This document shows, in pieces, positions 33,122-50,940 of a DNA stretch of 64,000 bases. The stretch lies in assembly GCF_038396675.1 (NCBI RefSeq), contig NC_088921.1, positions 48,056,001 through 48,120,000 on the forward strand. Reading direction: 5' to 3'. The stretch comes from Hydra vulgaris (lineage: Eukaryota; Cnidaria; Hydrozoa; Anthoathecata; Hydridae). Position 1 is the first letter of the stretch. Every line of letters starts with the position of its first letter. The translations under genes were made by a program, and so were the position numbers. The notes beneath the pieces are model-generated. The model saw nothing but the letters and a program-made list of their open reading frames with translations, searched no databases and had not been told where the DNA came from.

Positions 33122-36100
33122 TTTTTTTTTTTTTTTTTTTTAGTATTGTATTTGCCGATTGAAAATAATTTACACTCGTAATTTATAAAAACAAATATTT
33201 ACATGACTGGGGCTTGAAGAAGACAAAATTCATCTTATCATTAAGCCCCCCCTAAAAAAATGCATATTCATCAAATAAAATGTTTTAACAAAATGCAAAA
33301 TATAAAATATATAACGTTTAAAATATTTAGTAATTCAAAGAGTATTTATATTTAAGAACTGATTAGTAAAATAAGATGATATATAAGTATTAATATTACA
33401 AAAAGAATTTACAATAACTTTTTTTAATAAAAATTGAAATTATAAAATTTTACAATATTTTTAGTAATTAGTATTTCAAATAATAAAACTTAAAAAAATC
33501 GTTTGTAAATTCAAAACTTATAAGATAAGAAATACATTTACAATAGCAGACTATTGTTTAGAATATTAAATATAATATTAAAGAGTAATTAGTAGGTTAA
33601 TTTTTGTTTTTGTTTGCTAGTTTAAAAAGCTTTTTAGAAGAACTTTAATTCATTTTCATGTATCATCAGTAATTGCTTAAGTTTTGTTTTAAACTGGTTT
33701 AAAGAATAATTAGATTTCAGCTCATTATTTAATATTGTATTCCACAGCTTAGGACCTCGGTTAGCAATTGAGAATTTGGTTGCTGAATAATGTGTTTTGG
33801 ATTGAATGTAATTGTTTTTTGAAAATCTGGTAGGGTATATGTGGTTTATATTTATGGTGATATTTTTTTATCAAGTTTAAACATGAAGATAAGAATATGG
33901 TAAAGGTTTAGTTTATATACATTTAGAATATTAAGTTTATTAAATAATGTTTGAGTGTGAGAGAAACGGTCTACGTTTGTAATTATCCTTATAGCCTGTT
34001 TTTGTTTACTAAACAGTTTTTTTACTTTTGTTGCGTTTGTGCTGCACCAAGCAACGTTTGCATAATTTAAGTAGCAATGAATTAAAAAAAAATATAAGTT
34101 TTTTAAACAAGATAGATTTAAAAACTGCTTGGCTTTATACAAAACACCTATATTTTTTGATATTTTATTTTCAATTAGACCTATGTGGTCCCTCCAGGTT
34201 AAATTTTCATCCAGAACCACACCTAAAAATTTTATTGATTGCTCTCTTTTTAATAATGCGTTATCAATAAAAAGATCAGGAAGTTTTAATGGAATATCTT
34301 GTTTTTTATGAAGACGATGGAACAAAGTGTATTTGGATTTATTGATGTTCAAAGATAGTTTGTTTGATTTGAACCATTGGGTTAATTTTTCAAGTTCTTT
34401 GTTTACTGTTTGAAATAATTTACTGATATCTTTACTAGAATAAAACAAGTTTGTATCATCTGCAAACAAAATTAAGTTTAAAATGTTAGAAAATTTATAT
34501 AAGTCGTTAATATAAACGAGAAATAAAAGTGGTCCTAAAATTGATCCTTGAGGAACACCACAGGTGATTGACTTATATTCCGTTTTTCCGCTATCATATG
34601 AAATAAACTGCTTTCTATTAGACAAGTAACTATCAAACCAGGACAAATTAGTATTTATTATACCATAACTTTTCAGTTTGGATAGAAGGATTTGATGATT
34701 TACAGTGTCAAAAGCTTTACTTAAATCGATAAATACACCTAGGGTATACTTGTCTTCATCAAACCCTTTAAATATATCATGAACAAGGTGAGTGATTGCA
34801 TGATCAGTTGAATGACCAGATTTAAATCCACACTGTTTATGAAAAAGAATATTATTAACATTTAAAAAGGAATATAGTCTATTATACATAACCCGCTCTA
34901 ATATTTTAGAAAAACAAGAAAGAATTGAGATTGGTCTATAATTCGTAACATCGGAAGGATCACCTGATTTTAACACTGGAATGACTTTTGCAATTTTTAG
35001 GTTATCTGGAAAAACGCCTTGTTTTAGAGATAAATTAAAAATATGTAGTAATGGAATTGTAATTTGTTTTATTGATTTGATAATGACATTACTACTTATA
35101 TCATCAAATCCTAAACTTTTATTGGGTTTTAATAAAGAGACTGCGTCTAGTAATTCTTTTTCTGTAAGTTTATAATTAGACATAACATTAAGGTTGGTTG
35201 AGGTTAAGTACGAACTAAAGTGTGATTGAGTAGTTGCTATATTAGATGATAAAGTAGGACCTATATTTACAAAAAACTGGTTAAGTGTTTCAGCGACTAA
35301 GGATTTATTTACAATTTGTTTGTTATTAAATTTAAGATTTAGAGGAAGTAAATTTCTGCATAAGCTTTTTTTTCCAATTACCTCCTTAATAATATGCCAA
35401 GTTTTTTTAGAATCATTTTTGTGCTTTATTAATTGTTCAGAATAGTAACGTTTCTTTGAGCGTTTTAAAATTGACTCAAATAGCCGTTTATAGTTTTTAT
35501 AGGTAGTTTCATTTTTAAGAGTTCTTTTTTTAAGAAACTTGTTATATAAGCGTTGTTTTTTTTTTGAAGATTTAAGAATGCCCTTCGTGATCCAAGGGTT
35601 TAAAAGTGTTTTTGTTTTGATTACTTTAGTAACTTCTGGGAATGCCTTGTTATAAAGATTAAGAAACTCTGTTAGAAAAATATCATACGCTTTATTGGCG
35701 TTTAGATTTAGTTTTAGGGTGTCCCAGTTAACACAGGATAGAAGCTTATAAAAATGACTAATAGAAGTGTCGGTTATTAAACGTGTTTTAATTATTTTTT
35801 CCCGTTCATTTTGGGCATTATATATGCATTTTTGCGATAGGATAAAAATCGGAAAGTGATCAGACACGTCAGTTGTAAATATTCCTGTTCTTATATTTTC
35901 ATTTATAAATTCATTTGTTATAATTTGATCTAGGGATGTTGAACTTTCCTTAGTTATTCGCGTTGGTTTATTGATTAGTGGAATATAGCTATTTTGAAAA
36001 ATGGTGTTAAAAAAGTTTTTAATATATATATTATTTTCATAATCTAATATATTGAGATTGATATCACCAATAAAATATACAGCTTTATTCATAGACGATT

Positions 36101-36667
36101 TATTTTTAATTATTTTTTTAATGTGGTTTTCAAATACCTTAATGCTTCCTGAAGGCGGTCTGTATAAACCATGAATGACGATATTTTTTGAGGTTTTGTT
36201 AATAATTTCAATACATAACGATTCGTAATCGGTAGTAGTTGAACTTAAATTTGGTTTAACTTTGAATAATATTGAGTTTTTTATGTATATACACAAACCC
36301 CCACCTTCCTTATTAGATGCTCTAACTTGATGAATTACTTTATAATTAGGTAATTGAAAATTAGAATTGTTTTCAATGTTTTTATCTTTACACCATGTCT
36401 CACTTAGACAAATTATTTGAAATTTAATGCCAATTTTATATAAAAGTTGTTTTAATGACTCAAAATTTTTTTTGAATACTTCTAATATTAATATGAAGCA
36501 TTGAAAAATAGTTATCCTCCATTCCATTAGCAATTTTTTTAGAATTTGGGTCATAATATAAAGGGTTAATATTTTTAATTATTTCATCATTATTATAAAA
36601 ATTAATATCAGGATCCGAATAGTTGTTTAATAGTATTGACTTTTTTGATACAAATGAATTAAAATTT
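33122..36667 (-). mobile_element. APE-type LINE inserted into an older LINE
   Basis: A 3.55 kb retrotransposon on the minus strand. It ends in a 21-base poly-A tail (T-run 33121-33141) and an AT-rich 3' UTR. ATCT is shared by both junctions, a target-site duplication of at least four bases that overlaps the tail. The 5' end starts inside the protein-coding part, so it is 5'-truncated. Two single-base slips in A-runs break the frame (near 36471 and 33867), so it is inactive, but it is far better preserved than its host LINE. Confidence 0.85.
33634..36667 (-). pseudogene. LINE polyprotein: APE endonuclease and reverse transcriptase
   Basis: The longest uninterrupted frame is 33852-36554 (900 codons). 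Order on the minus strand: endonuclease with LHINIRSIQK (before the first frameshift), CLSETW, GLYRPPSGS, GDINLNILD, SLDQIITN and SDHFPIF; a lysine-rich linker; reverse transcriptase with IPVLKSGDPSDVTNYRPIS, FIDLSKAFDTVNH (catalytic Asp present), GVPQGSILGPLLFLVYINDL and FADDTNLF (catalytic Asp pair present). After a second A-run slip near 33867 the tail continues with NRGPKLWNTILNNELKSN and a stop at 33634-33636. Catalytic residues are intact. Clade is CR1/jockey-group by motif; finer placement needs a tree. Confidence 0.9.
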
Positions 36668-41040: not shown

Positions 41041-42039
41041 AACAGTTTAATAACACTTTTATTTATTTTTAATGATTTTCTGTTTTATATCTTTTAACTG
41101 AGAGTGTGTAGTTGGAAAAAAAAATTTAATGCCATATTTTGGCTTCAGGTTATAGAGCATCAATTGATCAGTTGTGTATTCCGTCAAGATATTTTTGCAT
41201 TCCGTCGGGATATTTTATTTTTATGCTTCATGTTTGATGTTACGTCAGAAGCTATTACCTTAAATTATATGATTGAACTCTTTAACTTTAGATAAAATAA
41301 AAAAATTTGTTATGATTATAATTCTAAGTATCTATTTATTTATTTTATCTAAACACTCATATTTATTCAATTATTTATTCATTCAATTATCTTATTTTCT
41401 GTTTTTTTTTTTTTACTTCGGTTTAGGCGAGAAAGGTGTTTATTACATTAATAAAATTTTTACTGCAATAAAAAAGTTAGTTAACATTTTCGTCATTTCA
41501 ACTAAGCACTGGCATTATCGCATTGGTGGTTAGCAGAAAGCGATTTTTTTGATTATGGGATAAAAAGCGATAAAAAATTGCATAAAATTGGACTCAATTT
41601 TTCGATAAAAACTCACAATAAATTGCCCAGCAAATCGATCTATAAAAATGACAGTATCGCAATGACCTAACTAAATATCACATTTGTAACTGAGTGCCCC
41701 CGAATTCTCATCTAGTAATCGAAATTTACTGCATCACCGAAATTAATTAAATTGCGGTGACGCCATTGCTTAATTTGACCTCTTAAAATTAACATCATTT
41801 CACTATTTAAAAATGGAATGAATATTATTAGAAAACTATGGTGAAAAAATTTCCCAAATGTGTTTGTTTTTTCATTTTGAATCTCATTTTTATTAAAAAT
41901 GTTTAAAACGCTAAAAAATTTTAAAACGCTAGAACGTTTGATTTATTCTAAACGCTTCGCGCAATACTGCGGAAATTAGAACGTTCTTAATGTGCGGAAC
42001 AAATTCTAAAAATATTTCAAACTTCGAGAATTAATGTTT
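41041..42039. other. No gene recognised; relatively CpG-containing patch
   Basis: From about 41690 to 42000 CpG dinucleotides and AACG words (GCTAGAACGTTTG, TAAACGCTTCGCG) are more frequent than around. Nothing functional could be assigned. Confidence 0.35.
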
Positions 42040-42230
42040 CACTTCCAACCAGAAATCACCGTGTATGCATCTTTTTATCCAATAATATTCTTTATTTTTT
42101 ACCCCGTAAAGTTTTTCTATGATAATACAGTGATCAATGGTGTCAAACGTCTTAGATAAATCGACACTTCAAGAGTAGATTTTTTTTGTCAAAACTATCA
42201 GTTATTTGGTTGACTAGTTCAATAATGTAA
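42040..42230 (-). pseudogene. LINE reverse-transcriptase palm fragment
   Basis: The minus strand reads LVNQITDSFDKK, then a broken version of the D-L-S-K-x-F-D-T-x-D-H motif, then KLYGVKNKEYYWIK, which matches the block after motif A. It may belong with the thumb relic at 40.7-41.0 kb. Confidence 0.55.
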
Positions 42231-42253
42231 TTATTAAACTAGTATGGAAGTTT

Positions 42254-42299
42254 AGTAAGGTTCAAACTCTAAATGATCATATAAAGTTTGAACCTTACT
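42254..42299. repeat. Inverted repeat, 15-bp arms
   Basis: AGTAAGGTTCAAACT at 42254 pairs perfectly with AGTTTGAACCTTACT ending at 42299; 16-bp spacer. It directly adjoins the LINE fragment. Confidence 0.85.
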
Positions 42300-42449
42300 T
42301 AAATTGAGAGGGCTCAAACTTTATATGGTTCAACCAATTAGCTAGTAGCGTACAAATAACTTGAACGCTTAGAGACTGTTCTATGAAATTTAAAATTTAT
42401 CAATAAATATTAATTTAGTAAAGAATAGTAAAAAAAATAATTTGTCGCT

Positions 42450-42640
42450 CTGACGTTTGGGGCTTTTTTTGCTCCCAGGCTCCAATCATTGTATTTTTTA
42501 CAAAGCATCATTATTTGTCATAAGTATGTAAAAGGTTCTCAGAAAAATTACTAAACTCATGAACAGATCGAGCATTTTTTGTTGTTTTAACTTCCAGATA
42601 TGGAGAAAACTCCAAACATTTATATGTTTGTTTCTAACTT
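42450..42640. repeat. Dispersed repeat shared with 58.3 kb
   Basis: GGCTCCAATCATTG, ACAAAGCATCATTAT and CTCCAAACATTTxTATGTTT occur here and, in reverse complement, at 58330-58430. Short blocks in the same order point to two diverged copies of one element. Confidence 0.5.
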
Positions 42641-43262
42641 TTGTTGCACCTGTAATAAATAGCTTGATTATTTTAAATACATTTTCTTGCATTATCAGGT
42701 TTTCTTTTTTTGTTTGTTTCTTATTGTGTACTGTACTTTCTTGTGCTATTATGTTTTCTTATGTTATTTGACTTTACATTTTATTGCTCTTAATTATTTA
42801 AAAATCAATAACAAAAACTATAATATACGCAAAATTTAAAAAAATGAGTTAACCAGAATAAATTAATAAAAAAACTAAGCAATAAATAATAAATATTTTA
42901 GAAGCGAAAGCATTGGTAATAGCGTTTAACAAAATTTTATATTATAACAAAATGTTATTTTGACTAAAGATAAGCAAACTAGGAAACATTTGCTTTTCTT
43001 ACCCCATACTGTTTCATCTGCGGAATCATTTATTTTGATATTTTAAACATTCGTATAAAAAATGAAAAAATATCAATTTTATTACATACAAAAAAAGAAA
43101 TCAAAAAATCTCCCATCGTATCATTGTATTTAATTTATTTATTTAATAAAAATAAACGAATTAGAATTAACAAAATAAATTAAAAAACCTTAAAAAAAGT
43201 TTACTTGACAAACAAAGTTTCCAGCTTTCGTAAGCTTAGTTATCAGAAAAATATTTTACAAA
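42641..43262 (+). promoter_or_regulatory. Upstream region of the secreted-protein gene
   Basis: AT-rich with no gene. No clear TATA or initiator could be chosen. CTTAGTTATCAG, 19 bases before the ATG, could act as a splice acceptor for a spliced leader, a use known in Hydra. This is inference only. Confidence 0.25.
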
Positions 43263-43392
43263 ATGTATGCTCTTAAGAAAAGCTTCCTCTTATGTATTTT
43301 TACTATTGGTTGTGTAGTAGTTTTAGCAACAACAGAAAACGAATACAAAAAAGCCGCTTGTCCTAGCAAATGCGGTCCGGTAGCTTGTCCAG
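43263..43392 (+). CDS. Secreted IGFBP-domain-like protein, exon 1 (signal peptide)
   Basis: The ATG at 43263 opens a 43-codon exon. Residues 1-24 form a signal peptide (K-K, then a hydrophobic run LLCIFTIGCVVVLA). The mature chain then begins around ENEYKKAACPSKCGPVACP, with the first three Cys of the domain at residues 33, 37 and 42. The exon ends one base into a Gly codon at a GTTGTT donor. Joined to exons 2 and 3 the product is 103 residues. The Cys pattern C-x3-C-x4-C-x8-C-x-C-x2-C-x7-C-x7-C-x5-C-x4-C resembles the IGFBP N-terminal domain, as in single-domain (SIBD) proteins of invertebrates. The function in Hydra is unknown. Confidence 0.8.
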
Positions 43393-43486
43393 GTTGTTTT
43401 TCTTTAAAAAAAAATGCATATATTTACTTATTTTAATAAATACAACATATTTTTTACAACTGGATGTTTTATGCTAATTGTAATCA

Positions 43487-43491
<5 letters not shown>

Positions 43492-43570
<79 letters not shown>
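43492..43570. repeat. (TA)n microsatellite in intron 1
   Basis: About 39 TA units lie 24 bp upstream of the exon 2 acceptor, close enough for length changes to affect splicing. Confidence 0.95.
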
Positions 43571-43572
<2 letters not shown>

Positions 43573-43593
43573 TTTTTCTTTCTTTGTTGTTAG

Positions 43594-43719
43594 GCAATTC
43601 TTACAGTGATAAATGTGGTTGTGTAAAATGTGCTAGTAATAGAGGAGGACCGTGTGGAGGTGTCGAAAATGCGCCTTGTAACTATGGTCTTAGATGCATT
43701 AATAATGTGTGCGCGCCTG
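43594..43719 (+). CDS. Secreted IGFBP-domain-like protein, exon 2 (Cys-rich core)
   Basis: This exon follows a TTGTTAG acceptor and ends at a consensus GTAAGT donor, both introns being phase 1. It encodes SYSDKCGCVKCASNRGGPCG, then APCNYGLRCINNVCAP. The D-K-C-G-C-x-x-C-A...G-x-x-C-G-G...C-x-x-G-L-x-C series is the core of the IGFBP N-terminal fold; one Cys of the usual C-G-C-C is Val here. No stops. Phase-1 introns at both sides make the domain a cassette that can be joined to different tails. Confidence 0.8.
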
Positions 43720-43841
43720 GTAAGTTTAACCAAAAATTGCATTTAAACTTGTATATCAAAATTTATTAAAGATTCATACCGAGTAAACTAGTTTCATTTT
43801 GAAAAATTGTATTAATTGGAATATTTTTATTTGAATTGTAG

Positions 43842-43897
43842 AAGCGGAGGAAGATGACAATGTTCTACGAAAGTTAAAAAAGCTATTCAAGTTTTAA
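43842..43897 (+). CDS. Secreted protein, last exon a (acidic-then-basic tail)
   Basis: The acceptor TTGTAG precedes 43842 in the matching phase. The exon encodes EAEEDDNVLRKLKKLFKF and then TAA (43895-43897). An acidic patch is followed by a short amphipathic, strongly basic segment. An AATAAA at 44130-44135 gives a plausible poly-A signal 235 bases on. Helical basic tails like this are seen in membrane-active or heparin-binding peptides; which of these applies is unknown. Confidence 0.75.
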
Positions 43898-44129
43898 GAA
43901 AACAGAGAAGACAAGAATTTAATTTATATGTTTAATTTTGAATTGTACATATGAAAATTATTGTAATGTCATTTCTTGTTAAAAAATTGTTGTTACGTAA
44001 GGTACATAAAACAAATGATTTTTTGTTGTCGTTTGTAGATAAACTGTTTTTTTGCCAGTGACTTTCATCCAATATTAACAATCAGTTAACTAAAATCGTG
44101 AATTGTAACTGCAAATTTTTAAAGTTCTG

Positions 44130-44135
44130 AATAAA
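44130..44135 (+). terminator. Polyadenylation signal AATAAA
   Basis: Canonical hexamer downstream of the stop in last exon a. Confidence 0.55.
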
Positions 44136-44511
44136 ACCAACTTGAATCGAATAGATTTCGATATTTTTGCAATCTTTAGTTAAAGATGGTAAAAAGCATA
44201 TGAATTACATTACATGGCCGTAGACAAGTGGGGGCTGGGGAGGGGGCAATTTCAGTTACTTTTATGCTTGAAATCTTTCAAGAACTTATTATTTAAAATT
44301 AAACATTATAATATAGTATTTATATATCAGTTTACATAAAAAAGCGGTGTCGGGATTGTTTTAAAAACGTTTGTATTGGCATTATTTAAAGCAATTATTT
44401 AAATGTTATTTATGCATTTCTTAGTTTTAAACTAGATTAAAACGAAGTTTGTTGTAGCTGTAGTAACAGTGTTTTCTATGATTTATTTTAGTGATATGTT
44501 TTTTAAAACAG

Positions 44512-44573
44512 ATTTTGCGGCAGGAAAGCGTCTTAGACGACTAAAAGAAAGGTTAGAAGAGAAGAAGAGGTAG
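44512..44573 (+). CDS. Candidate alternative last exon b (basic helix tail)
   Basis: An acceptor with pyrimidine-poor but T-rich tract (TTTTTTAAAACAG) precedes 44512. In the same phase as last exon a it would join exon 2 to give C-A-P-D followed by FAAGKRLRRLKERLEEKKR and TAG (44571-44573). The tail is 12 charged residues out of 19 and fits an amphipathic helix. Like tail a, it is short and basic. An AATAAA at 47951 would lie about 78 bases after this stop if the pogo element were absent. No transcript evidence is available; a decayed duplicate exon or chance frame are alternatives. Confidence 0.45.
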
Positions 44574-44956
44574 ATACAAATTGCACTATTAGGGGAAAGT
44601 GGGGTAATATGGGATACTTAATTTTAACGACTTATAAAAATGAAATTTCAAAAATTAATGTTGTTGCTAATAGTCAGTTAGTTTCAATAGTTATCAAATA
44701 TCATTTCTATAAAAGATGAGTCTAAAAGCTTCAATACACTTTGAGAATATTTAATAAACAGAAAATGTTTGGGTATCCCATATTACTCTCAAAGGTGGGG
44801 TAATATGGGACACCTGATCAATATCAGCTAAGGATGGTAATAAGTTATGCAAGATCTTATAAATCAATGAAACAAAACAAAAATTTATTAAAAAAAGTAA
44901 AAACAGCCTTAATATTACAAAAAAAAGAAAAGATTAATAAAAAAGAATTTCAATTT

Positions 44957-46916
44957 CTAATCGCTGTCAATGCATAAATCACATTTAAATTCGTCTTCAT
45001 CAGCCCCTGCACATTCTGTGTGGGCCCATTTCCTGCAAGTTTGGCACATGACCTATTGCTCTCCTTGGCCATCCTCCAAGAATAAGCCAGTACAGTATAT
45101 GCATGGAGTGTGATTATCAACCATTAACGCACTCGTCATTGTTGCGCCTAATTGTTTTTACTTTTTATTTTCGGCTGAAAAAAGTTTTTTTTTCAATTTT
45201 GATTTTCCTTTTGTTTTTTCATTTTTTTCAGGCTTCTCACTAAGCGATTGTTTGTAAGGGGAACTTGTCAGCACAGCAGTAAATCCCTTACGCCTTCTGG
45301 TTCAGTTCACTCTTTCTTTGGCTACGGGGTAAGGACTTATGTCACTAGCCAACATGGGTGTATCACTACCACTGGCGGATGTTGCAATTGAATGGTTATC
45401 TCATTTTCAGGGGCAGGCATTTCTGTTGTTTCTGCCGCCTTAAACTCCTACTCCTCAAATACATTCCTATTCACTGGCCAAATTTTAGTCTTTTCATATC
45501 TATTAACTGCTGTTGCGAGGCTGGAAGTGCGCAGATAGGCCATCGCAAATATAGAAGTTATTTGGAATTCTATGACGATTCGCCCAGGATGTGTGCGGAG
45601 CCACATCTGAATCTCGGAGTCATAATAAGTAGATAACGGCTTCATAAATGCAACATCAAGAGGTTGCATTCTGTGAGTGCAGTGCGGTGGGAGATATTTG
45701 TTATAAAATGTTTTCTAGCCAAATTATTGGCCTCCATATTCTTAGTATGTGAGGCATGACCATCTAATATAAGTAAAGCAGGGCTTTACACATTCAATAA
45801 AATGTCTGAGCCATTGGGTAAACAGTTCAAGTTGAATCCAGCCAGTCTTATGACAGGCATAAGTAGATCCTGCTGGTGCGCCGTCCATTAACTCCATTTT
45901 CATGCGCTGTCGAGGAAAAATAAACATAGGTGGGATATATGTCCCAGATGCACTCATGCAAAGTATTTTAGTAACCAACCGTCCTCTTTCAGCTGAAGAA
46001 AGGATGCCAACTTGTTTTTTCTCTTTCAGTGCTATTATTTTGGCATTATTGGACGGGACAGTGGTAATGCTCTTTACCACTGGTTTAAATTTCTTCTCAT
46101 CGATTTCCCTTTCCAAAAGGTCAAAAAATTTGCCCACATTTACTTTGTTAAATGCGGTAGTGGTGTAGTGGTAAGAGCGCTCGCTTTGTAAACGAGAGGT
46201 TCGGAGTTCGACTCCCACCACGTCCCTGGAAGTACCGCTCTCAACTTAGTTTCTCCGCGCAGCGGCCTTGCTCGGCAAGGTTCGTGTTTCGGAGTTAAAG
46301 AGTTGAGAGAGGGTTGCACCACGAATAATGACTAAAAAAAAAAAAAAAAAATATTTAAAAAAAAAAAAATGAGTATTCTCCTCGACTGTAGTGGCCCCCC
46401 TCGGGCCTTGAGGAGGTGAATAATTAAAAAAAAAAAAAAAAAAATGCTGTAGCTCTTGCAATGGAAGTGGATTCTGGGGTTTTTATAGATAAGTGTGAAT
46501 GTCGTCTTAAAAACGATGCTAGCCGGTCTTTTCCAGCTCTTTCTTTTGCAGAGTTAAAACGGTTGGGAATACCGTTAATTTTTAACCTTAATTTTACAGC
46601 TAAGCTGAAAGGCCAGTCTACGGACATTTAAGCTGGTAAGACCAAAAAGCCTGGCTTCCATTTCTACTATGTAATCAGCCATATCTGATTCAAATTTGGA
46701 AGAGAAAATGGGTTTTCGTCCAAGTGGGAGACTGGTCAATTCTTGTTCTGGATGATCGTTGCATTTTAATTTGCGTTCCAGAGATGACCGAGGGACATTG
46801 AAGACTTTGCTAGCTTTTAGATAGCCCTTTTTTTTTTCTAACGGCATTAATAGCTGCTGTTATAGCTTCTGCTGACCACTGTTGCCTCACTTTTTTTTTT
46901 CAAATGTTCTCGGCAT
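44957..46916 (-). pseudogene. pogo transposase with C-terminal PHD-like finger, broken
   Basis: Minus-strand order: start ATG 46916; a frame slip in an A-run; psq-type helix-turn-helix (AINAVRKKKGYLKASKVFNV, then SSLERKL); second DNA-binding part (SMADYIVEMEARLFGL-like, then RRHSHLSIKTPESTS); SINE insertion at 46152-46441; DDE_1 core with KIIALKEKKQVGILSSAERG, PPMFIFPRQRMKMELMDGAP, GWIQLELFTQWL, then after a slip LILDGHASHTKN (second acidic residue), and MQPLDVAFMKPL (third). The N-V-D-E block with the first catalytic Asp, expected between FKP and SITTVPSN, is missing. The end has C-I-Y-C, C-Q-T-C-R-K-W-A-H-T-E-C and C-D-L-C, a PHD-like zinc finger, with a stop codon where Trp is expected. 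Confidence 0.85.
46152..46441 (+). mobile_element. tRNA-derived SINE, family A, inside the pogo transposase
   Basis: Starts GCGGTAGTGGTGTAGTGG (A box), anticodon arm with loop TTTGTAA (TGT), B box GAGTTCGACTCCC, then the family body with CTCTCAACTTAGTTTCTCC and GGCCTTGAGGAGGTGAATAA and a poly-A tail. AAATGC flanks both sides as a target duplication. Removing it rejoins the transposase frame. An extra A-rich block (about 46334-46369) splits the body, unlike the other two copies. Confidence 0.85.
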
Positions 46917-47888
46917 CTAAAAAAATAACCATACGTTTTATTTTCTAGAATTTTAAACCTCTTAAGGGTTTATAAAATAAAAACATAAAAATGTAGTTTT
47001 TAAAAAAGAGTTGAACACACAAGAGTCTATTTTCAATGTGCTTTTCCTGAATGCGACCCCAATCAAAGATGTATGAAAGAAAAAATAACTAAAAATGATA
47101 AATTTTTTTTAGCGTAAAAAGAAATTTTAAAAATTAACAGCTTTATCATTATGACAAATAATATGACTTAAGGAAGTTGTTAGTGTCTATTTAATTAATG
47201 CACTTTAAAATTCTGAACATTTTTACAGAACTGTTGGATCTTAAGGTGGTTTATACTAATGAGAAACTGTTGTTGGTATTTTAGCTTTTTTTTATCATGA
47301 ATAACAAAATTGGTTATAAATTGTTTATTTTTCAATCTCAAGTTAATACTTAACACACCCAGACTAATAATTAATGTAAATGAAACTTCTGGCTAGCTCA
47401 ATACTGACAATACAATAAAAGCAAAATTAGCATTGAAAATATAATAAGATGAAAAGAAAATAATGGAAATAACGTGGGATAGTATCCCATTTTACCCCCA
47501 TTTAGGTATCTCATATTACCCCACTATATAGCACACTTCTAATTGTGTTTTTTTTTATGTACCACGTGGAATGGACAACCCTTAAAAGGTATTTTATGTT
47601 TAATAATTGGTCAGTTACTAATTAAATTCTGAATATAGTAAGATAGTTTACCATTTTATTTTGGCCTCCTGTAACAAAGTCGATGTTATGTAAGGTTCAC
47701 TGGTGAAAACTTGCAAGACTTTTTTCAGACGCAAATAATTCGAAAGAGAACAACTTATGCTTGCAGAAGTAACTTCCTGACCTTCGCCTCGTTTCCAATT
47801 CAACAAATATTTTATAGCACTGACCTATAAGTAGATAATAGGGGTATCCCATATTACCCACTATCCCATATTACCCAACTTTCCCCTA

Positions 47889-48779
47889 CATTTTTCTATG
47901 CAAGAACTGTTGTCTCATCAGCTTCTCTTAGCACTGCCTCCACTACTAAGAATAAATCTTTTGCTTGCCTTGCAACTACAAATTCTAGTAGTTTTGACAG
48001 TACTTTTACAAGTGCATCTCTTGCTGATCCTGTCACTACTGCTACTAATTAACTTTTGTTGATTCTGCATTTACTGTTATTTTGGCAATCTTTAGCTTGC
48101 TATAATGCTTTATAAAGATCTGATGCTATATAAATTTTGTTTAATAAAACCAAACTTTGTTTTGTACTTTCTGTAACTTTCCGTATCTCGTAGGCATTTG
48201 AAAATATTATATTTGAAGGCCATATCTGACTTCACATTAAAAAAACATTTTTAAATGATAAATTACTTCAGAAATCTTATAAAAATATAAGAGAAATTAC
48301 GTGAAAAAATAGGAATTGGTACCCAATCTGTTGAGTAACTTAAATTATATAGAAATGTTCTGAATACTATCAGATTTATGTTGTTGTATTTACATTATTT
48401 AAGCAATTTACATCCAATATACAGTAGGGTAGGTCATATTTTTAATTTTTCTGGTTTTTGTATCGTTACTAGTGGAAAAATTTACTGCACTATATAATAT
48501 GAAAAATATTAGCCTTTTTGAATTTAGTTTAAAGGGGGCAACTTTTGCTTATATTATATGGGTATGATATTCACTGTTATTCGCCTACATATCACCTAAA
48601 AGTAAGTAAAAACACCATGCAAAGGTCAATAGCTACACTTGTATACTAAAAAAAAAAAAGTGAAAATGCAAAATCCTTATATAAAATCCTTTTAGCTGTT
48701 TAATTTTGGATTTGCGTTTCGAGTTTGGATTCCACGGTGTTTTTCTTAGGTTGTTTTTTCATAGGATTTTGTATACTCT
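47889..48779. other. Right flank of the pogo element; possible exon b 3' UTR
   Basis: Begins with a stretch containing AATAAA at 47951-47956. A Ser/Thr-rich frame runs through it to about 48050 (STASTTKNKSFACLATTNSS) and stops; I do not call it coding. The rest is AT-rich with nothing recognised. Confidence 0.35.
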
Positions 48780-50940
48780 AGATACATCTTTGACTAAACG
48801 TTCAACATTTTGAAAATGACATGGAATTCAGGAACTTGAAGAATACCATTTGTAACATTGATTAAGATGTCTTTATTGTTTACTTCAGATCAAATCGGAG
48901 AGAGATCTTAACATTTGACCAGTCGATCATTTCCAAATATAAGGAAGCATGAAAATTGAGAGAAACCTTTTGTAGATAGAAAACACGTACATCATTAGTA
49001 TTCTCTTCTTTTCTACATGTAATAATTTTCTTTGCTGTATAGACTGCTTTTTCTTGCCTATATCCATTATGGCTGACAATAAAAGAATTTCAGGTCGAGC
49101 AAAATAGCAATTTCTTTTAATTTGCAATACTTTCAGGGTGATTGCTGTTGTATTAGGATGATTAAGAATCCGAACGCATTTCATAATCATGAAAAAATTC
49201 CGTGCTCCTTAAACGCATTTCCATTTTTTTTAAATTAAAAACCAGAAGAAGCAGTAAACTTTGATAATGTAATCAACAATTTTTAACAGACTTGTTGTGG
49301 GTGTTGTGGTATAACCGAAGCAGGTGATTGGCAAATGTGAGCCGCCTAGCATAATTGAGATTTCCGGAAGAAGTATTTGTGAAACATTTCTTCCTTTCTA
49401 CATCCAAATTTTAGAATTCTCGAATAACAGCATTACATGCTTTAAAAATTTCATGCTTTAAGGAGGTATTTCTGATCTTTACTGAAATCACGAATGACGT
49501 CATCAAGCATTCCAATGTTCACTCCATTTAGACTGGGCAACTATTAGTACAAATTTACTAAGTTAACTACCAGTAGAAAATGAACATCGAAAGATAGTTG
49601 TTCACCAAGAATGAATTTGAATGCAGTAGGAATAGATGTACCACAATCAAGTGCAGTAAAAATTGCTCTGAGAGGCAGCTCATTTAAATGAAGCAAACAA
49701 ATACACCATTGAAGAGGTCTGCCAATGCAAGTTTTAAGTAAACGAATGATACCATTTTTCGAACCGGTGTTTACATCGGTACCATCACAAACAACACTCT
49801 GTAAAGTCACAAGAAAATTTCTGTCATTTAAAACTGAAATGATTTCCTTCGCAACATTAACTGCTTTACCACTTTGTGGTCACAGTAGACGCAGTTGAGA
49901 TATGAGCAGATAATGTAATAATTTTCTTTGATGGAAGCGAGCCTGCTAACTTTACCATTGCCTTGTTCCACTAAACTTTTGTCTGTATGGCCATCAAAAC
50001 CAACTCCAATGATTTCTGTGGCCAATCCTGCATGTTCTTTGACATGTTTTTTGTCACAACAGGTTTCTTTGTCTTTTTAATTTTGCTTGATCCAATATGT
50101 AATGTGGTGAATCAAATTATATATCTTTTAGACAAGCGTACACAAATTTGTATATATCTTGGTTGCTAACTCCTGTTTGTTCCACTATTTGACAGAGTTC
50201 TTTGTACTGAAATAAATTGTGATATTTATGGATCATGTCCATTATACAAGCTGTCTTATGAATCTCGTGTAGTGAGCAAATCTTTATCACTCTTGCATCA
50301 CAAGTTATTGTCGATGACGAAGCTTTTCATGTTGCTGCATTCTTTTTCCAAACTGAATTTCCCGTTCTTTAAGAGTTTTCTGCTTTTGGAGCCGTTCTGT
50401 TTCTTCTTGGTCATTCTGGCCAATGTTCATTTTACAATTACTCTTTTGATCTAGCCAAAATTCATACTCCTTTAAAAGAACTTTTCATGAAACAATGGCA
50501 GTTTGACCGGTCCCTGATACCACAATAAACATATTTGCAACGACAAATGTTAAATACTTTATTTAACGAACCAAGTTGGCACTGAAACGTAGATGAATTC
50601 CTTTTTTCATTGACATATTTTTTCAACCTTTTTGTATTAGTAACCAATTTATCCAAGCTTTTCAAAATGTTGTTATATGAAATCGTTGAAAACCTCGCAC
50701 TCGACCATATGTTTAATAAATCATCAGCAACTATCTTATTTACGTCTCTGATTGATGGTTCTTCAGAGTTTAAGGATTGTGAGAAAATCTTTGCGTGTCA
50801 GATGTATAGATAATGCTTAAAGACTTCTGCTTTTGTTGGCAATTGGCTTTCTGGAAATTTACAAAGTTGACCAAATACTGAGTGTTCAGTGTCACTTGGT
50901 TTGGATAAACTTTTTCTCCGAGTTCATTATGCAATCTAAA
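48780..50940 (-). pseudogene. Pseudogene of an unnamed recurrent family (GCDGTxVNTG type)
   Basis: Minus-strand pieces in order: RHAKIFSQSLNSEEPSIRDV near 50.8 kb; SLDKLVTNTKRLKKYVNEKR; EIIGVGFDGHTDKSLVEQGN at about 50.0 kb; VVCDGTDVNTGSKNGIIRLL, then RPLQWCICLLHLNELPLRAI, at 49.7-49.8 kb; and a tail reaching 48.9 kb. I recall this set of motifs from many predicted proteins in cnidarians and arthropods without an assigned domain. Two Asp-containing motifs (F-D-G and C-D-G-T) could be part of an RNase H-like transposase fold; that is a guess. Several frameshifts. Confidence 0.55.

Follow-up and report, generated by a model that had tools for sequence, protein, structure and literature searches.

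We found that the locus at 43263 to 44573 looks like a real, small three-exon gene for a secreted protein with a single IB-type domain, and that it ends in the short exon denoted here as tail A. A second candidate last exon, tail B, is very probably not an alternative exon but the start of a decayed hAT transposase, a reading based on sequence comparison across the genome. Positions refer to the window, by which we mean the whole stretch of 64,000 nucleotides analysed (C2:48056001-48120000), and the genome searched comprised 911.5 Mb in 15 contigs. The gene and the candidate exon are laid out as follows:

43263-43392, plus strand: exon 1, with the ATG at 43263, a signal peptide (judged by eye) and the first three Cys of the IB-type domain
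43594-43719, plus strand: exon 2, which supplies the other seven Cys of this domain and closes on a phase-1 donor (exon G followed by gtaagt)
43842-43898, plus strand: exon 3, or tail A, reading EAEEDDNVLRKLKKLFKF and then a stop; likely the natural last exon
44130-44135, plus strand: AATAAA, which may serve the tail A transcript as a poly(A) signal, upstream of the transposon relic
44512-44573, plus strand: candidate tail B, ending in TAG

Splicing in silico yielded proteins of 103 aa with tail A and 105 aa with tail B, and ten Cys were counted in the core of the spliced reading. The signal peptide, ten-Cys core and phase-1 donor that the preliminary description assigned to exons 1 and 2 are present in the sequence as claimed. 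It had also proposed two downstream tails fitting this phase. Both read as quoted and have their stops, but tail B belongs to a transposon relic, and swapping between the tails was not supported. The transcript probably ends near 44150. Intron 1 holds a long (TA)n microsatellite (43490-43570), and an Rfam search of 42000-49000 returned zero matches.

The Cys framework of IB domains typically has 12 Cys and includes a GCGCCxxC motif. The corresponding motif here reads KCGCVKCA, with one Cys fewer, and the total is ten. IGFBP (PF00219) was the sole Pfam family matched in the spliced protein, with 20.1 and 20.9 bits (E 0.001 and 0.00056), which is under the curated cut-off of 28 bits. The same Pfam model matched 21 exons in the genome, 16 of them above the cut-off, and both exon 2 of the gene and its close copy on contig C6 (see below) were missing among these 21. 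In an alignment of 16 rows, with the C6 row cut four codons late and the other rows picked from the 21 matches, Cys 20, 28 and 34 of exon 2 were invariant and Cys 12 was nearly invariant. Exon 2 begins, after the acceptor AG, with two bases and six codons ahead of its first Cys, and the domain-internal intron lies at an identical residue and in an identical phase in nine IB loci compared by eye (L003, L007, L009, L010, L012, L013, L019, L021, L022). As a protein, exon 1 had no genomic match other than itself up to E 10. The predicted fold of exon 2 alone had a mean pLDDT of 57.4 and a pTM of 0.33, too low for fold comparison, and comparison with solved structures gave no significant match.

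Besides exon 2 itself, the genome yielded a single close copy, at C6:13065967-13066053 on the minus strand (59% over 29 residues, or 61% over 28). The preliminary description had called for a search for paralogues sharing the core and differing in their tails; one close copy was recovered with exon 2 and none with exon 1, and the tail that follows the copy is related to tail A. The C6 tail, EIEDDSIFRKLKRIF..., sits 3.8 kb past the exon 2 copy and shares the splice phase and the acid-then-basic layout of tail A. It is preceded by AG in the same phase as tail A and reads EIEDDSIFRKLKRIFGKLVSIKKTKTC followed by a stop. A local search of 30 kb at C6 matched EDDSIFRKLKRIF to tail A with 23.9 bits (E 8.6e-4), and none of 1000 shuffled versions of tail A reached the score of the C6 tail. 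Genome-wide protein searches with tail A or with the C6 tail returned the query itself only, so the relation between the tails on the two contigs rests on the local search and the shuffle control. Across 41 codons of exon 2 and the tail, the gene and the C6 copy differ with a pS of 0.53 and a pN of 0.22 (Fisher p 0.0026, from rounded counts), and the changes in tail A are biased to silent sites. Of the earlier proposal, the part supported is a lone, secreted IB-type domain carrying one tail, tail A, which is amphipathic and acid-then-basic; a related tail follows the C6 copy of exon 2 in the same phase. Neither exon 1 nor the first codons of exon 2 were found in the 30 kb read at C6, and a stop lies just upstream of the exon 2 copy there; the C6 copy may thus have become a pseudogene. 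The two contigs also show upstream similarity (42361-42527, 67%), which may be a repeat and was left out of the argument.

Tail B lies in DNA of a different kind, for which the following features were delimited:

44213-44590, plus strand: left portion of the relic of a hAT-type transposon, with an approximate start, enclosing the whole tail B candidate
44496-44573, plus strand: decayed start of the transposase frame, MFFKTDFAAGKRLRRLKERLEEKKR, of which tail B (44512-44573) is part
44590-47888, no strand assigned: pogo-like DNA transposon inside the hAT relic, with 27-bp inverted ends including the flanking TA and DDE_1 pieces on the minus strand
47889-48426, plus strand: right part of the hAT relic, resuming past the insertion

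The DNA at 44380-44589 belongs to an interspersed repeat: it gave 45 matched pieces, counting the window's own, and 39 other places matched it at 70-89%. This is a lower bound, with 40 of 81 candidates scored. When tail B was searched as protein against the genome at E up to 10, no copy besides itself was found. Across the 39 copies compared, similarity spans approximately 44249 to 44590 and resumes at 47888. The left end of the relic is shared with L082 and L085 (44213-44243/50) and with L083 (44208-44244), while the right end and an 8-bp target duplication were not recognised within the window.

The repeat relatives indicate what this DNA once encoded. Of the 30 copies that align at the ATG of the transposase start, 27 retain it, and from it many relatives read MSLKRKLSGAEGKRLKRLKERLE or similar, often with stops or frameshifts. 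In the tail B stretch the window reads MFFKTDFAAGKRLRRLKERLE, and the likeness of the frames can be seen by setting VFSMIYFSDMFFKTDFAAGKRLRRLKERLEE in the window against VFSMIYFGDMSSKRKLSGAEGKRLKRLKKRLEE in one relative. Alignment of the window frame to the frames of six relatives, hand-picked for their long readings, gave BLOSUM scores of 63-98, none of which was reached by any of 1000 shuffles. Searched against the genome, the first 39 residues of one relative matched 88 places (E up to 10, self included), 45 of them below 0.01. The window copy was missing from the 88, as the decay of its frame put it beyond the reach of this search; the window is linked to the transposase by the DNA and frame alignments instead. 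Frames further downstream in the relatives matched Pfam DUF4371 in both copies scanned in that part, L083 with E 1.1e-13 (above the cut-off) and L088 with E 1.1e-6 (below it). The first frame of L083 (203 residues) matched no Pfam family.

DUF4371 includes hAT transposases that bear a TTF zinc finger at the N terminus (PMC3985635), and hAT elements of Hydra have been named (PMC3942097). The relatives resemble such hAT elements in their downstream DUF4371 pieces and in the left-end sequence that recurs among copies, whereas the window copy is decayed and split by a second transposon, with just the first transposase codons recognised. Judged from these alignments, tail B is the start of a dead hAT transposase frame. 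Its basic, helix-prone look stems from that transposase start.

The element that splits the relic is inserted 16 bases past the tail B stop. Its flanks both align in 35 of the 39 relic copies, where they lie one or two bases apart in 33. Pfam recognised two DDE_1 transposase pieces in it on the minus strand, one above and one below the cut-off, and we presume that the element is pogo-like. Within it, a tRNA-like stretch was noticed by eye at 46161-46330, perhaps a SINE; ARAGORN reported zero tRNAs over the window.

We suggest the following course of events. A hAT transposon inserted downstream of the gene and decayed, and a pogo-like transposon inserted into the hAT relic at a later time. The opening codons of the hAT transposase, which are basic and helix-prone, survive as an open frame, and changes in the window copy have brought an AG into a phase compatible with exon 2.

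The tail B acceptor is itself passable, with 53% pyrimidine upstream and an open frame closed by a stop. Among 34 alignable repeat copies, AG was present at the acceptor site in four, and AG together with the frame was present in none; only copies with 40 or more of the 62 exon bases aligned were counted, by which five of the 39 copies were dropped (L055, L057, L070, L071, L074). The acceptor accordingly looks accidental to the window copy. In L038, one of the four AG copies, another frame would yield a short basic peptide, and this shows that such tails arise readily here. Within the window, 195 of 2304 frames of 12-40 aa that follow an AG in phase 1 were basic and had a hydrophobic moment of 0.5 or more, and in 70 of those 195 the bases just upstream were also at least 50% pyrimidine; these counts overlap, since several AGs may open one frame and nested frames are recounted. 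Frames of this basic amphipathic type are frequent behind an AG in the window, and tail B stands out from them no more than expected by chance. Its GC content is 42% where the local mean is 27%, and 7% of the window's 62-base stretches have as much. This GC content is what coding DNA should show, though old transposase coding DNA would look alike. Tail-B-like matches at C6 (rc 17037, 13221) were considered and rejected, as no convincing acceptor was seen by eye and the best score was reached by 22 of 1000 shuffles.

Transposon pieces sometimes serve as exons, and it is conceivable that in some transcripts exon 3 is skipped, exon 2 is joined to 44512 and the end falls within the pogo-like element; the secreted IB product would then carry a basic tail of transposase origin. 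The fitting phase, the AG and the close stop would allow this, as would the AATAAA at 44753 within the inserted element, the next one after 44130 in a scan of 43891-44900. Since the AATAAA at 44130 precedes the relic, a tail B transcript would need an end beyond it. The frequency of basic amphipathic frames after an AG, the absence of acceptor plus frame from all 34 copies and the weakness of the C6 match also speak against such exonization, which we regard as highly improbable. The related idea that the basic start of the hAT transposase was captured as a rarely used second last exon, placing a new cationic tail on an IB gene, seems to us just as doubtful. Still more remote is a tail B that is specific to the gene and kept by selection, as in an effector with swappable tails, and we consider this extremely unlikely. 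The two tails are indeed both short, partly basic and helix-prone, with hydrophobic moments of 0.90 and 0.74. However, this likeness is compositional, the tail B DNA is a repeat, and its relatives read a transposase start, so that the repeat analysis largely contradicts selection for swapping. The repeat copies are homologues in which 44512-44573 is not such an exon, an outcome that the preliminary description had named as refuting its idea; with the transposase-start frame, the transposon inserted just downstream and the weak C6 match, they leave the idea of a swappable second tail without support.

The doubt may also be extended to the whole locus, with tail A too being part of a pseudogene or a chance reading. 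The incompleteness of the close C6 copy would agree with this, but the signal peptide, the IB-type domain with its family-like internal intron position, and a tail A that has a same-phase relative and changes biased to silent sites all argue against it, and we find it very unlikely. The preferred reading remains a gene of three exons ending in tail A, downstream of which lies a dead transposon. As a tentative best guess, the disulfide-bonded IB domain may bind an extracellular peptide or protein, while the amphipathic helix of tail A might touch anionic surfaces such as a glycosaminoglycan or a membrane.

Small secreted proteins of this general type have been described before. A 105-aa Hydra protein was modelled on the spider protein SIBD-1 and is reported to have 10 remote paralogues (PMC3509713). 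For cnidarian VP302 ('venom protein 302'), transcripts with a single domain are reported from one clade, along with isoforms whose 3' ends differ (PMC10972341), and IGFBP appears in a published table of domain counts (PMC7642931). The gene resembles SIBD-1, VP302-like and Hydra SIBD-like proteins in encoding a small, putatively secreted product with one candidate IGFBP-type domain. It differs from SIBD and VP302-like proteins in its ten Cys, in a CGCC motif that lacks one Cys and in its sub-cut-off Pfam score, and also, as far as they can be compared by description, in its acid-then-basic C-terminal tail. Among the literature titles and abstract openings listed, none names the gene. Secreted proteins with a single IB domain are already known in Hydra and other cnidarians, and the gene is best filed as a further member. 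The tempting case of tail swapping is hereby removed, and the locus illustrates that a basic, helix-prone transposase start can be mistaken for an exon of antimicrobial-like character. The finding left standing is a modest one, a gene with one IB domain and an acid-then-basic tail that is related to a copy on another contig.

Several observations were made beside the gene. Elsewhere in the window, 33855-36578 on the minus strand is a single open frame of 908 residues, which, from its motifs, we take to read like the endonuclease and reverse transcriptase of a non-LTR retrotransposon. A cluster of IB-domain exons lies at C1:62.7-66.5 Mb (L007-L016, L019, L022). In L012 and L014 the frame continues past the IB exon into a second cysteine-rich stretch, which is presumably antistasin-like. 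The IB exons L015 (C1:63519045-63519203) and L016 (C1:63528457-63528615) lie approximately 9 kb apart in opposite orientation; their printed readings are identical, and each has one stop within the matched stretch.
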